Shown here: positions 8,507-15,399 of the stretch, one piece after another
Position numbering within the stretch: the first letter of the stretch is position 1
How the letters are laid out: the number at the start of each line of letters is the position of its first letter
Source of the DNA: Candidatus Woesearchaeota archaeon
Lineage (GTDB): Archaea > Nanobdellota > Nanobdellia > Woesearchaeales > JAGVYF01
Assembly: GCA_018303425.1 (NCBI GenBank)
Contig: JAGVYF010000019.1
Location: forward strand, 1-56,672
Length of the DNA: 56,672 nucleotides
Direction: 5' to 3'
Made by a program: the position numbers and the translations under genes
The notes under the pieces: generated by a model
What the model was told of the DNA's origin: nothing
Seen by the model: the letters and a program-made list of their open reading frames with translations, nothing else
The model's database searches: none

Positions 8507-8953
8507 TTACTTTTTTATTTTTTTGGCAGGCTTTTTATTTAATTTTGTCTTTGGCTGTTTTTTAAAAATAAAATAAACCATTAACCATGCGCTGCCTTCA
8601 AGTATAAAGTAAATTTCTGCGAAATATGCGAGTACGAGAATAATTCTTGGAATTACCATGTTAAGTGAGAATGATCCCGGTTGCCAGAAAATCAATAGTT
8701 CTAGGACAAGTAATAAAGCTACGTATATTAGGCCAACTGCAATTCTTAATTTGTAATGAATCCTTTTTCCGAATACAAAGCCATGCAATGCCCCAACTAA
8801 AAAACAGGTTAATGCCAATGATACTATAGATAATAAGGTATAATCTTCAGAAAAATAACTTAAAAATCCTGTAATTATTATGTTTACAAAAACAATTAAA
8901 AATAAATTAATCCAGATAGTATCTAACCATTGCTTTTTTATCATGTTCACCAT
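8507..8953 (-). CDS. Four-helix integral membrane protein
   Basis: 148 residues with hydrophobic helices at about 13-33, 42-62, 70-90 and 100-130 and a very basic Lys-rich cytoplasmic tail (NKKPAKKIKK). No family recognised. It is the last gene of the operon running from 15399 to 8507; its ATG overlaps the stop of the preceding gene within ATGGTGA. A second in-frame ATG at 8944 is possible. Its location suggests a membrane partner for the secreted proteins upstream. Confidence 0.65.
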   Translation of the reverse strand: MVNMIKKQWLDTIWINLFLIVFVNIIITGFLSYFSEDYTLLSIVSLALTCFLVGALHGFVFGKRIHYKLRIAVGLIYVALLLVLELLIFWQPGSFSLNMVIPRIILVLAYFAEIYFILEGSAWLMVYFIFKKQPKTKLNKKPAKKIKK

Positions 8954-10248
8954 GCGTTTGTTGCGCTTGAATCTGCATTTGATTGACTTGAACCGCTATT
9001 TGAGCCAGAATTTGGTGCTGTTATCACTTCGGCAAATTCAGTTATATCTGCAAATCTGTTGCAGGTGTTTCCTACACTTGACCTTAAACAAAGTTTGTCG
9101 TAATTTTTTGTTGAATACTGTATAAATGCAGTTTCACCGACATGGTTTACTGCGCCCTGTTTACTTTGGTCCTGTTTAAATATAGCAACTTGCAATGCGT
9201 TACTGCTAAATAAATCTATATTATATGTAACCCTATCTGTTTCTTTTTTAGGTTTGATTTGTAAAGTTATTTTATAAAGATATTCTATATTACCTTCAGG
9301 GTTAATAATTTTGGTTTTTTCTCCTTCAATATGCGCAACAAGATTTCCAAGCAACGAGCTATCAACAATTATTCCTTGGCTTGAACCTGCTTTTTTTATA
9401 GTTTTGTCGCAGATGCCCGCGGGGGGTTCACCTGTGATAAACTGGCCAAAAGATCCCTGGAAGAATCGTTCAGACCATTCAAAACCATTTATACCCAGTT
9501 TATCTGCTAAATACCTCCCTGCTGTTGCTCCTTCATAAATCGTATCCATTCGCTCATAGAATGTGCGGGAATCCCAACGTTCTTGTTCGAATTGCCTTAT
9601 TATTTTTTTTGCAAGTTCAAAATCAAAATCCGGGGTTTCTCCTGCTTTTTTCCTGGCTTCTGCATCAGCAAGCCATGAATTAGAATCTGCAATAATTTGG
9701 TCTTTTTCTTGGTTTTCTAAATTGCTCATTAAAGAAGGGTTATTGCCATATTTCACTAATTCTTCATGCCGTTCTTCTATTTTTTGTGTAATACTTGTAT
9801 CGTACTCCTTATATGCGGATTGTAACTTATATAAATTTGATAATGGGGTAGTTTTGTCAATAGAACTTGTTATTGTAGATATTATTATCCTAATTTTATT
9901 TTTTTGTTCATCTGTAAATTCTACTGAATTATCTTTGGCTTCTTTTATCAGAAGAGTTAAAATTGCATCTACTTCTTTAATCTTAGATTTAATATTTTGA
10001 GAGGGTTTAGAACCAGTACCGATTTGTGTTACTTTAATATTCATTAGGTCATCTAGGATAGTAGCTACTGCTGCTTGTGCAGACTGATCATATAATATAT
10101 TTTTACCTACAACCCCGTTATTAGGTAGTTCATTTAAAGGTATAGTCTCCGTATCCATTCCAGTAACCTCTGCGTTCCAATTAGCAAGCACACTTATCAT
10201 TACCATAAATACAAGCATAATTATAATTAAATTGATTTTTCGTTTCAT
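8947..10248 (-). CDS. Secreted or membrane-anchored protein, unknown
   Basis: 433 residues. The frame opens upstream at 10269, but ATG 10248 overlaps the preceding stop as TAATG and has AGGTAGGG as a ribosome-binding site, and a signal peptide starts exactly there (MKRKINLIIIMLVFMVMISV). The mature part has a helical central portion (about residues 60-220) and then a beta-rich part with a few Cys (ICDK, LCLRS, CNRF) typical of exported proteins. It ends in a Ser/Asn/Gly-rich tail. No known domain seen. Confidence 0.7.
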   Translation of the reverse strand: MKRKINLIIIMLVFMVMISVLANWNAEVTGMDTETIPLNELPNNGVVGKNILYDQSAQAAVATILDDLMNIKVTQIGTGSKPSQNIKSKIKEVDAILTLLIKEAKDNSVEFTDEQKNKIRIIISTITSSIDKTTPLSNLYKLQSAYKEYDTSITQKIEERHEELVKYGNNPSLMSNLENQEKDQIIADSNSWLADAEARKKAGETPDFDFELAKKIIRQFEQERWDSRTFYERMDTIYEGATAGRYLADKLGINGFEWSERFFQGSFGQFITGEPPAGICDKTIKKAGSSQGIIVDSSLLGNLVAHIEGEKTKIINPEGNIEYLYKITLQIKPKKETDRVTYNIDLFSSNALQVAIFKQDQSKQGAVNHVGETAFIQYSTKNYDKLCLRSSVGNTCNRFADITEFAEVITAPNSGSNSGSSQSNADSSATNAW

Positions 10249-13217
10249 TATATCCCTACCTTCTTGCATATATTTGCAGCACCGTCAAATTTGTCAAGTA
10301 AATTTTTGTTTTCCTTTAAAGCTTTAAAATCTTGCAATATGCTTTGTACTTTTTTACTTGACGAAATAATTCTGCAAATTGCATTAGCTTTTGCTGAGGG
10401 GCTGCTGCAAAGTTCTTCTGATAATCCTAATATTAAAGATACAGGGTCATGGAACAAGTTTTGAATTGTCTGACCAAATTTCTTTACAATGTGCGCAAAT
10501 GGGATAAGATCAAATATTTGTCCATACACAAATCTGCACTCTTGATAAGCAACCTGGTTATCGCAGAAAGCAACTGGTACGCCTGTTGGGACTTGATTTT
10601 CTAAACAGTCAATATATAAACACTGAATTTGTTGCCTTTTTTTTAGATTATACATAACGCCTGGAATACAACCAGTCATTGCACTTAATAAAAGATTATC
10701 TTTTGGATTTGACGGCCACATTCCAGGTGCGGAATTGGCTTCAGTAGTTTTTGACATTGATTCATAAAAATTAGACAATGGTCCGCTGAATGAACCTTTT
10801 TCGCATGACATAAATCCACAGAATTTTTTCAAACTTTGTGTAATGCCCCGTATTACTCTGCTTTGGCTTTTTGCAGCGCCGTCTAATGAAACATGGGCTT
10901 TTACTGCTGCAGGAGCAGTAGGCGGGTTAGTTTTCAGTGCATCAATTAATCCTGCAGGTCCAAGACTTAATTTATGGAACAAGTCGCTTCCCAATGTAGC
11001 TAACCTAAGTCCAGTGCAAACTTTCTCGCTTATATCATATATCTTTTCAAGAATGCCAAATATACCGGTCATTTTTGCCTGTTCACGGGCTTTCTTAATT
11101 TTATTAGCAACAGTAGCCCCAACTGTGCCTGCGCGGGAATCAACTACTGGCAGTTTTAAACTAATATCAATATTTTGTGGTTGTGTAACTCTCTCTCTAT
11201 TGATAACTGAAATAATTTGTAATTTACATTCGGCATTTATTTCGTTGATTGAACCAAGTCCCCCCTTTGTTTGGCCGGATACAAAGATCCCATTATCAGT
11301 TGCAATAATTCTTTTGTTCAATTCTAAACCTGTACCGGCGCAACTAGTTAATATAGCATCGACAATTTTAATATTTTTAACAGATGATACTAATGGCAAA
11401 ACAAAATAAACCTTTTGTGATTTAAAGAGTGTATCCTTTGATATTGCAGCAGGTCGAGTTAAAACGTTGCCTTCCATTCTCCAATAATTTTTAGGCAGTC
11501 CTTCAGCTTCAACAATGTCAACGGTGTTATTATATATGACTGAATTACCGCTAAAATCAATCAATTCAATTTCATATTCAGCGTCAATCAGTGGTCCGGG
11601 CACTATAGAACCAATATTGTTCCATTCACAGATATATTCGCTCTTATTGGAGCTTGCGCAGCCTTTTTGGAAATTTTGGCCTTCGTTGATTACTCCGCCA
11701 AACCGGCCGATTGCAAGAACCGGTGAATCTTCTTCCAGCACGAGTTTAATGTTTAATCCTTCGCCTTGCAGTAAATATCCAAACTCTCCTGAATTAATTG
11801 TTGCTTCTTTCACAATTGGCCCTTTTTTGTCAACTATAAATTCCGATTCCAGCACCCCTTCTAAAGCGTTGCCTGCGTCGTCTTGTGAACCTTCTGCTAA
11901 TGAGGCTTTTACAAAACTGCCATGATTTTTAGCAACTTCAATATTGTGCCAGTAACATGTCCAGAGATTATCTTCTTTAGCGCAATCATCTGCCCATTCT
12001 TTAGAATATATAGAGTTAAGCTGTCCTAAGTTTAAACCAACAAAATATTTTTTTTGGCCGTTAATTAATATTGCTTTTTCAAAACCAGAACCCGACTCAC
12101 TAATTTTCATTTTAAGAGTATTATTTTTTTCTTTTAAATAACATAATCCCCCGTTGCAGTTGCTCTCAATTGAGACTATTGAAGGTTTTTGGTTGTCAAG
12201 CTGCAATGAGAAAGGCACACTTTGATCTGCATTATTCCCGGCGCCATCTTTTATACTGAGATCAATTTGACCGGATGCTTGCTCAGGGAACAAATAAACA
12301 TCGTTCCATTGGCATAAATGTACCCCTCCCAAATCCCTGCATGAGGCTTTTAAATTTTCATACGCAATTTTATAATGTGTAATTTTATTTAGTGATGATA
12401 AATCGCCAATAACCTCGGCAAGATTGGATTCTTCAATGTAAACCAAAATATCTACATGTTGTAATCCGTTTACGCCAATATATGAAACTTCCTTGCCGTC
12501 TTTGAAAAATAATGCTTCATTAGTTTCAACCCGCGGCAATGTTTTGTCAACAGTAAAGCTTTGCGAGGTATAAGACCCAATATTTCCTGCGCCATCATAT
12601 ACATTAACATTTAAGACGTATGTGCCTGATTCAAGGTCAAGTATCTCGCTGTCGGTATAACTGCATTTGCCTGTAGCATTTAACTCGGATTGTTTAATCC
12701 CTACAAATTCAATTCTTTTAAAACCTGAACATTTGCCTGCACAGGAAGCATCTGGACATGCGCTGTCTGTTAATTTATAGGTAACTTTGATATCATTTCC
12801 AATCTGTTTAACTTCTAAATCTTCAATAACTGGATTAATATTATCAATAGTAATAGATGCGTCTTTGGTCGCAACAATTGAACCTGACTCGCTATATAAT
12901 GAAACAGTAAATGGATAAGATTTAGCTTCAAAAAATCCCCCGTCTTCAACATATTTACACTTAAAAAAATTATTATTCACTTCAACACAAGTATCAAATT
13001 CAACATCTTCAATTTTTACTTGTCCTGGGCTGACAAAACTTTCATTATCAATTTTTACTACTGCTTCAACTATTGCATCATCATTCGTTTCCCTATTATA
13101 ACCATTAGTGTTATCTTGTCCATAGACATTTATTTGGCTAATGGTGCTTTGCGCAAAAGTAACCGGCATAGACAAAATCATTATAATCATTAATATTGCA
13201 TAAAATTTTTTATTCAT
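10248..13217 (-). CDS. Large secreted protein with Ig-like repeats
   Basis: 989 residues with an N-terminal signal peptide (MNKKFYAILMIIMILSMPVTFA). Residues about 25-590 hold at least four beta-sandwich repeats that share a D-x-A-G-N-type loop (YDGAGNIG, KDGAGNNA, QDDAGNAL) and a Cys-aromatic motif (CQWNDV, CYWHNI, CEWNNI). The C-terminal third is helical with paired Cys residues (KKFCGFMSCEKG, CIPGV, CLYIDCLEN), suggesting disulfide bonds outside the cell. It is coupled to both neighbours by overlapping codons. A surface adhesin or S-layer-associated role is plausible but unproven. Confidence 0.75.
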   Translation of the reverse strand: MNKKFYAILMIIMILSMPVTFAQSTISQINVYGQDNTNGYNRETNDDAIVEAVVKIDNESFVSPGQVKIEDVEFDTCVEVNNNFFKCKYVEDGGFFEAKSYPFTVSLYSESGSIVATKDASITIDNINPVIEDLEVKQIGNDIKVTYKLTDSACPDASCAGKCSGFKRIEFVGIKQSELNATGKCSYTDSEILDLESGTYVLNVNVYDGAGNIGSYTSQSFTVDKTLPRVETNEALFFKDGKEVSYIGVNGLQHVDILVYIEESNLAEVIGDLSSLNKITHYKIAYENLKASCRDLGGVHLCQWNDVYLFPEQASGQIDLSIKDGAGNNADQSVPFSLQLDNQKPSIVSIESNCNGGLCYLKEKNNTLKMKISESGSGFEKAILINGQKKYFVGLNLGQLNSIYSKEWADDCAKEDNLWTCYWHNIEVAKNHGSFVKASLAEGSQDDAGNALEGVLESEFIVDKKGPIVKEATINSGEFGYLLQGEGLNIKLVLEEDSPVLAIGRFGGVINEGQNFQKGCASSNKSEYICEWNNIGSIVPGPLIDAEYEIELIDFSGNSVIYNNTVDIVEAEGLPKNYWRMEGNVLTRPAAISKDTLFKSQKVYFVLPLVSSVKNIKIVDAILTSCAGTGLELNKRIIATDNGIFVSGQTKGGLGSINEINAECKLQIISVINRERVTQPQNIDISLKLPVVDSRAGTVGATVANKIKKAREQAKMTGIFGILEKIYDISEKVCTGLRLATLGSDLFHKLSLGPAGLIDALKTNPPTAPAAVKAHVSLDGAAKSQSRVIRGITQSLKKFCGFMSCEKGSFSGPLSNFYESMSKTTEANSAPGMWPSNPKDNLLLSAMTGCIPGVMYNLKKRQQIQCLYIDCLENQVPTGVPVAFCDNQVAYQECRFVYGQIFDLIPFAHIVKKFGQTIQNLFHDPVSLILGLSEELCSSPSAKANAICRIISSSKKVQSILQDFKALKENKNLLDKFDGAANICKKVGI

Positions 13218-13315
13218 TTGTTATAATTCTCCATTTGCGTTGCGGTTTTTAGCATAATTTGAGTTGAGATTACGGCCGTAAAAATTTTGTTATTTACAGT
13301 TATTGAGGTTTTCAT
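13214..13315 (-). CDS. 33-codon microprotein coupled at both ends
   Basis: ATG at 13315, stop TGA at 13214-13216. The start overlaps the stop of the upstream pilin-like gene as ATGA, and its stop overlaps the start of the Ig-like gene, again as ATGA. The peptide begins MKTSITVNNKIF and is polar with Thr and Asn; it has no membrane segment or Cys. Without it there would be an unexplained 94-nt gap in an otherwise gapless operon. It may act only to couple translation, or be a real small protein. Confidence 0.55.
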   Translation of the reverse strand: MKTSITVNNKIFTAVISTQIMLKTATQMENYNK

Positions 13316-15399
13316 TTTTGTGGCGTCAACTTATCTTTATATTTTTCAGCCATATTTTCGAAAACACTTATTTCATCCATTACTAAATTATTTGCGCCAG
13401 GCATGTTGACAAATAACCCATAAAATGTAATTGGCGTATTTTTATTCATATCTTCTTTATACAATGTGAAAGGAATTTCATATTCAATTGCAGGCATTGG
13501 CATCACCATGTCTCCGGGGCCGGGTAAATATACCCATTCACATTTAGACTTTTTCATGAATTTTTTCATTTTGAAACATTGCAAACTTTCAGGTATTGTG
13601 AAATTTCCGTCGTACATAAGCATCACTCTAACATTATAATTTCCTTCTACAAGCTCTATATCTTCTTGTGTTGAACTGGTATCAAATACTGCAACTCTTT
13701 TAAAATCCGGATCAATTTCAGAATTTTGTAATCTTTCAAAAACAATCATCATGCTTTCTTTTTTCCCTAAAACTCTTGGTGAATTTTCAAGTATCCATTG
13801 ATTAATCCCAAGCCTATCTAATTGTTTAATATTCCCCGCAACTCTTTTAGATACCAATGGTTTCATCCTAAATATGCCTGCTTCTTTGTTAGCATCCAGT
13901 TCAGTTGTAAAATCAGGGGAAACTAACTGCAAATATTCAGGGTGTATAAAGGTTAATGAACCTAAACCTACCGGGAAGTTGCTTGTTAATTCGCCATTTA
14001 AATCCGTTTGTCCAATAACGCAGCTATCAACAGAATTAAATAACACGCTGACACCTTCAATAGGCTGATTCGTGATAGAGTTTCTTACTTCTAAATGAAC
14101 TTCACCGGAATTTCTTTTGTCAATATCACAAAACATTGAATCTTCTAATTCAGCGCCGAACACTTGATTATTTTCATATTTTAAAGGTTCATTGTTTCGG
14201 ATATTGGATTCAAGGGCAAATCTGAATACATATCCTTGTTCTTTTAATGCGTCAGGGTCTTCAATCTCAATGACAACCGGGTGTGATATATCATATATAG
14301 TGTCATACTTTTCAATTGCCAGGCTTAAACCAGGGATAATGCTCGGCAATATTTGTTCGGGCATAACAACTCCGCTATTACTATTTAATGAAAGATAGAT
14401 TGGCCAATTGGAATAATAATTAAAATTTACATTTAACTTATTAGTATAACTAAAAGGCACAATTAAATTTTTATAAATTTGTAATGCAGTTTCAGCATAT
14501 TCTTCAGCGCTTAGTTCCGGCAAGGCTATGTTAAGTGATGGATCTGCCTGTAAAAACATATATTTTTCTTCAAATAAGCTTTTTAGTTTTTTTTCAACTT
14601 CAACTTTGGTCCAGAACACATTTTTAAGCTGCATTTCACTTGCAGCAAAAGGGGGCAACAAATTTCTGTTAACGCCGGAATATGTGCTTATTAACTCAAT
14701 ATCAGTATATTCCAAAAATTTCTTTTTAAGTTCAATCCCTGCTATATCTCTTGCTGCATCCAATATCTTTCTGAGATTTAAATCAATCTGGGCAAAAAAC
14801 TTAGAATGACTAGTAACTCTTGTACCGGTGTTAACTTTTAATGGGTAAAGCACATTTACTTGTACATTTGAAACTCCAATGTTAGCCTGCGCTTCAGGTT
14901 CACTGTCTTCTATAGTAAATTTAGGGAATTCTTCAAATCTTCTTGTGCAATATTGAAGGTTTTCTTCGACATATATAGCAAGCTGTTCTTCTATTTTTTT
15001 ATTGCTTGGTGTTAAACTTTGATCAAAGTTGCAGGCTCCAACGCAACTATTGGGACTTTTCATATAAAACCAGTACGGAACTTTGATGCCTGGCGCAAAT
15101 TCAACTCCTTCTGATGATGTTGGTTCCGGAGTTATTATGATTCCTTGTTGTTCAATGTCGATATATCCTCCCTGCGCGCCTAATTTTCTCAATCCTTCAA
15201 CGGCCGTATTTTCAACACACTTTTCAATAAACCTTTTCAATGGTTGGAGATCTGAAGGAACTTCTTCAATGTACGGTTTAAAATTTCCATAGTCTTGTCC
15301 AATACTCTTAAATGCGTATAATGTTGCAATAGAAAAAACGAGCATTACACCTAATGCGATAAATAAAGTAACTTGGCCTCTTTTTGATAATCTATACAC
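13312..15399 (-). CDS. Surface protein with class III (pilin-like) signal peptide
   Basis: 695 residues. The N-terminus is SKRGQVTLFIALGVMLVFSI, fitting an archaeal prepilin signal: a basic residue and Gly before the cut, Gln after it, then an unbroken hydrophobic helix that in pilins builds the filament core. The rest is far longer than a pilin. Around residues 440-500 a carboxypeptidase-regulatory/PEGA-like beta domain appears (EVRNSITNQPIEGVSVLF, TDLNGEL). Several Cys pairs are present. It is first in a five-gene operon with its own promoter (ATTTATAAAT near 15424-15433). The prepilin peptidase is not in the window. Confidence 0.75.
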   Translation of the reverse strand: MYRLSKRGQVTLFIALGVMLVFSIATLYAFKSIGQDYGNFKPYIEEVPSDLQPLKRFIEKCVENTAVEGLRKLGAQGGYIDIEQQGIIITPEPTSSEGVEFAPGIKVPYWFYMKSPNSCVGACNFDQSLTPSNKKIEEQLAIYVEENLQYCTRRFEEFPKFTIEDSEPEAQANIGVSNVQVNVLYPLKVNTGTRVTSHSKFFAQIDLNLRKILDAARDIAGIELKKKFLEYTDIELISTYSGVNRNLLPPFAASEMQLKNVFWTKVEVEKKLKSLFEEKYMFLQADPSLNIALPELSAEEYAETALQIYKNLIVPFSYTNKLNVNFNYYSNWPIYLSLNSNSGVVMPEQILPSIIPGLSLAIEKYDTIYDISHPVVIEIEDPDALKEQGYVFRFALESNIRNNEPLKYENNQVFGAELEDSMFCDIDKRNSGEVHLEVRNSITNQPIEGVSVLFNSVDSCVIGQTDLNGELTSNFPVGLGSLTFIHPEYLQLVSPDFTTELDANKEAGIFRMKPLVSKRVAGNIKQLDRLGINQWILENSPRVLGKKESMMIVFERLQNSEIDPDFKRVAVFDTSSTQEDIELVEGNYNVRVMLMYDGNFTIPESLQCFKMKKFMKKSKCEWVYLPGPGDMVMPMPAIEYEIPFTLYKEDMNKNTPITFYGLFVNMPGANNLVMDEISVFENMAEKYKDKLTPQK

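Follow-up and report, generated by a model that had tools for sequence, protein, structure and literature searches.

We asked whether a 33-codon open reading frame (ORF) lodged between two larger genes of a Woesearchaeota genome (G000; 937 kb, GC content of 32%) is a selected small gene or a fortuitous opening in a spacer. The window, that is, the whole stretch of DNA analyzed, comprises 56,672 nucleotides. An earlier note had reported that the ORF overlaps both of its neighbors by an ATGA, and this was found to be exactly the case (Table 1). On the minus strand, the upstream 695-amino-acid (aa) gene ends in ..ACG CCA CAA AAA TGA, the first ATGA being made of the last A of the lysine codon and the TGA stop, and the ATG of the small ORF occupies positions 13315-13313. 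At the other end, the TGA of the small ORF (13216-13214) and the start codon of the 989-aa gene overlap, so that a 4-nt stop/start overlap of co-directed genes is present at both junctions and the two large genes are separated by a spacer of 94 nt. As the note had also stated, no signal or membrane segment is evident in the 33-aa sequence.

Table 1. Positions of the features discussed; g108 loci are numbered on their own sequences
Feature	Locus	Positions	Strand	Description
33-codon ORF	window	13214..13315	-	MKTSITVNNKIFTAVISTQIMLKTATQMENYNK, TGA stop; ATGA-linked at both ends
Upstream ATGA	window	13312..13315	-	Stop of 695-aa gene and start of 33-codon ORF
Downstream ATGA	window	13214..13217	-	Stop of 33-codon ORF and start of Ig-like gene
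695-aa gene	window	13312..15399	-	Pilin-like N-terminus (short basic part, QVTLFIALG-type hydrophobic segment)
989-aa Ig-like gene	window	10248..13217	-	N-terminal signal-like segment, weak Ig-like matches
GGAG	window	13229..13232	-	Shine-Dalgarno-like; 11 nt ahead of the Ig-like start codon
g108 microprotein	L257	6124-6270
g108 microprotein	L222	6025-6171
g108 microprotein	L220	4872-5018
g108 microprotein	L210	4685-4831
g108 microprotein	L224	4235-4384
g108 microprotein	L216	4196-4342
g108 microprotein	L239	6215-6361
g108 microprotein	L213	6121-6276
g108 microprotein	L227	2358-2504
g108 microprotein	L229	6147-6290
g108 microprotein	L230	6129-6269
g108 microprotein	L247	6126-6272
g108 microprotein	L299-L315

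Positions 8507-15399 of the minus strand hold a run of four co-directed genes, encoding the 695-aa protein with the pilin-like N-terminus, the 989-aa Ig-like protein, a 440-aa protein, and a hydrophobic 148-aa protein. The 695-aa protein had no match in Pfam, and the matches of the 989-aa protein (Big_13, DUF7743, and Big_3_2) were all below the cut-off. A 695-aa-type gene upstream of an Ig-like gene is a pair conserved throughout the order in Woesearchaeota, and our search of the literature on this group returned nothing about their junction. The operon had been described as having no other gaps. This holds downstream, where the last three genes are joined without gaps, the 989-aa gene ending in TAATG (a 1-nt overlap) and the next junction reading ATGGTGA, but not upstream, where about 100 nt separate the 695-aa gene from the gene before it.

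The Ig-like gene is preceded by its own Shine-Dalgarno (SD)-like GGAG, which lies inside the spacer. The 3' end of the G000 16S rRNA reads ..GGATCACCTCC.. and ends in CACCTCC, and at a spacing of 11 nt GGAG occurs 8 times in this genome, compared with 1.5 per position in the background, an enrichment of about fivefold. No GGAG-type site was found in front of the small ORF. The archaeal TATA-like motif TTTAWATA was absent from the spacer, and a scan for bacterial-type promoters remained at chance level. A repeat or mobile insert was rejected, the spacer DNA having no second copy in G000, and so was an RNA element, the spacer folding no better than its shuffles (z = +0.84) and matching no Rfam family.

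We then compared the locus with 77 distinct junctions between orthologues of the two genes in relatives; a scan of genome contigs with a single protein gave no match, and a profile scan gave matches. The commonest arrangement (31 of the 77) had no intervening sequence, the upstream stop codon overlapping the start of the Ig-like gene directly, nearly always as ATGA; the upstream gene ended in ATGA in 43 junctions. Spacer lengths ranged from overlaps to more than 500 nt. The nearest genomes in the set, G001 and G002, belong to the same family but to another genus, with about 33% protein identity for the gene compared. G002 has a direct ATGA overlap without an ORF, G001 has a TAA stop and then 86 nt of spacer that hold no linked ORF, and the reading frame of the 33-codon ORF was likewise absent from the other junctions examined. 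The proposal that a small ORF is conserved at this place, be it as a coupling device or as a microprotein, thus finds no support for the 33-codon ORF. Differing spacer lengths in relatives were what the earlier note had named as refuting it, and the nearest relatives show them. Since the nearest relatives represent another genus at this level of identity, a young, lineage-specific ORF would still be compatible with the comparison.

Gaps of at least 40 nt were found at 30 junctions, 11 of which carry a conserved microprotein of about 49 aa (see below). Among the other 19, an ORF linked by ATGA at both ends occurred only in L241; this ORF of 45 codons, unrelated in sequence, lies in a spacer with a GC content of 61% and is probably a chance product at such a GC content. 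In G000, the upstream protein has its whole C-terminal motif and the downstream protein its whole signal-like segment, indicating that the extra DNA lies between the two, and because direct overlap is the commonest state in relatives, the start codon of the small ORF was probably inherited.

On these grounds, we hold with moderate confidence that the ORF lies in a lineage-specific spacer that is open by chance and may act as a passive relay, its 33-aa peptide probably not being a selected product. A spacer of 94 nt would have been inserted into, or would have grown at, a junction that in many relatives is a direct ATGA overlap. The start codon of the ORF would be a relic of that overlap, its stop codon would be supplied by the ATGA in which the Ig-like gene starts, and the codons in between would be free of stops by chance. 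The Ig-like gene would be initiated mainly via its own GGAG, while ribosomes that terminate on the 695-aa gene may restart at the relic ATG, translate the small ORF, and restart once more for the Ig-like gene. Because a translated gene ends in the very codon that the relic ATG overlaps, the 33 codons are likely to be translated to some extent, and this position, together with the SD-like site in the spacer, leads us to favor a spacer with a possible passive relay.

The composition of the ORF is neutral. Its codon score was -0.03 bits/codon, compared to an average of 0.15 bits/codon for coding stretches of the same length and -0.06 for non-coding open ones, which places it at the 59th percentile of the non-coding and the 12th percentile of the coding stretches. 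No homologue of the peptide better than E = 0.025 was found in 60 relatives, and this best match sits inside an unrelated longer frame; the missing homologues are weak evidence, since no genome of the same genus was among those compared.

How surprising such an ORF is was estimated from the stop-free rate. Dinucleotide shuffling left the interior of the ORF free of stops in 8.9% of cases, and among intergenic windows of 32 codons in G000 the stop-free share was 8.3%; multiplied by a frame factor of 1/3, these rates give a probability of about 3% that a 94-nt spacer is in frame and open, given both ATGAs. The presence of the ATGAs themselves is less surprising than it appears, since the first was probably inherited and for the second it suffices that an A follows the start codon, as in 38% of the genes of G000. 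We also surveyed spacers of 20 to 140 nt bounded by ATGA on both sides, with simple longest-ORF calls as baseline genes, so that all counts are approximate. G000 has 3 such spacers, of which 1 was open versus 0.09 expected, which taken alone is suggestive of more than chance, but over eight genomes (2.37 Mb) 4 of 21 were open versus 1.8 expected, an excess that is not significant (Poisson P = 0.11). A looser count of linked ORFs also picked up real small genes, so the double-ATGA criterion enriches for genes without being proof for a single ORF. ATGA links at both ends of an ORF this long are not rare enough to make it a gene; for the window the finding is close to ordinary, and the first ATGA is better accounted for by descent. 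In our rough weighing, a fortuitous ORF is fairly probable, whereas selection on the ORF in whatever role, or some other cause, keeps a substantial though smaller share. Side by side with these counts, we note that the minus strand of the G040:C1 sample (L159-L178) carries a 46-codon ORF that is ATGA-linked at both ends, MRTKMKFTITKKIAKHGSQAIIIVPRMLESFLKPGTLTKINIEVLK, and resembles an AbrB-type small gene by eye; two further linked ORFs, of 96 and 61 codons, lie in the same sample.

The main rival to a chance-open spacer is that the ORF is translated and kept open by selection in order to pass ribosomes on via two ATGA reinitiations, its frame and ends being constrained and its sequence free. 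Coupling by termination-reinitiation was seen in 13 of 14 native ATGA pairs tested in Haloferax volcanii and Escherichia coli (Huber et al. 2019, PMC6728339), whereas a gap of about 20 nt nearly abolishes coupling in both organisms and, in E. coli, 15 nt of upstream reading frame is enough for reinitiation (2023, PMC10666635). The junctions described here resemble these pairs in their 4-nt stop/start overlap between co-directed genes of one run, and the probable ancestral junction of the 695-aa/Ig-like pair is of the same type; they differ in that two successive overlaps flank an unconserved 33-codon ORF. With a gap of 94 nt, the Ig-like gene must either initiate by itself, at the SD-like site it possesses, or receive its ribosomes via the small ORF, and given the effect of a 20-nt gap, a relay ORF would be a natural way to keep coupling over this distance. 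An ATGA-to-ATGA relay as a coupling device is thus mechanistically plausible by analogy, and selection for it would be in line with the exact ATGA register at both ends, with the probable ancestral direct coupling of the gene pair, and with the single open linked ORF in G000. However, many relatives tolerate gaps of 40 to 500 nt without a linked ORF, the survey of several genomes shows no significant excess, and the Ig-like gene has an SD-like site of its own. We therefore consider a selected relay unlikely, albeit deserving of serious attention.

Unexpectedly, a clearly conserved small gene at this junction came from another genus of the same order. In genus g108 (family f9), the spacer encodes a protein of about 49 aa in the same slot, with the consensus MNLIKIxxxxKRKFSExYDIKxYRKxASEQxxVxxYxxxxxKIxIxxEK. 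Of 20 g108 genomes, 15 carry it, and no other genus of family f9 does. Two extra copies occurred in genomes placed in other families, L301 (G277, f57) and L312 (G082, f24); one of them lies at the very start of a contig, and transfer, misplacement, or a binning error may account for them. Among members with a 695-aa-type neighbor in reach, the microprotein starts -4, +1, or +2 nt relative to that gene's stop codon in all but one, the exception being +54 nt in L239/L307. Where the start of the Ig-like gene could be called, the microprotein ends close to it; L210 and L220 carry ATGA at both joins. In all 66 pairwise comparisons pN was lower than pS, and the closest pairs, for which dS is unsaturated, gave dN/dS values of 0.07 to 0.36, so that, judging by its codons, the g108 microprotein is clearly conserved and under purifying selection. 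It matched nothing above the cut-off in Pfam and NCBIfam, and the one member scanned against PHROGs had no match. AlphaFold2 predicted a low-confidence helix (mean pLDDT of 66.8, pTM of 0.30). It represents a microprotein family under purifying selection in uncultured DPANN archaea that is matched by no curated family scanned.

The g108 protein thus resembles the 33-codon ORF in its slot, in its two neighboring genes, and, in L210 and L220, in its ATGA joins, but differs from it in length, in sequence conservation, and in purifying selection, and the two show no similarity. One could imagine that small ATGA-linked ORFs, serving as relays or partners, have arisen repeatedly and independently at this junction in different lineages, as the 49-aa protein in g108 and the unrelated 33-aa one here. 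If so, small ORFs would keep translational coupling over an enlarged spacer, a reading to which we give only a minor weight. In any case, the junctions of this one gene pair, variously overlapping directly, gapped, or filled by micro-ORFs, form a natural series well suited to testing whether relay ORFs preserve coupling.

The conserved protein of g108, tightly joined to both neighbors, also gives some credit to the suggestion that the 33-codon ORF itself encodes a functional, lineage-specific microprotein between the two surface genes. Membership of the 33-aa peptide in the g108 family was rejected, since its score of 2.3 bits was equalled by 20% of its own shuffles, and an alignment made by eye was lost on shuffling. 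The family profile had no match in G000 either. The overlooked microprotein that the earlier note had suspected at this junction is accordingly encountered in g108, but the 33-codon ORF, with its neutral codon score and no homologue in the 60 relatives, improbably is one.

Lastly, we regard it as very improbable that the ORF is an N-terminal extension of the Ig-like gene severed by a frameshift, or by a one-base assembly error: although the two reading frames differ by one and in one relative (L010) a long N-terminal extension of low complexity begins at the ATGA, the stretch before the ATGA in G000 contains no long homopolymer, and a complete signal-like segment directly follows the SD-served ATG of the Ig-like gene.
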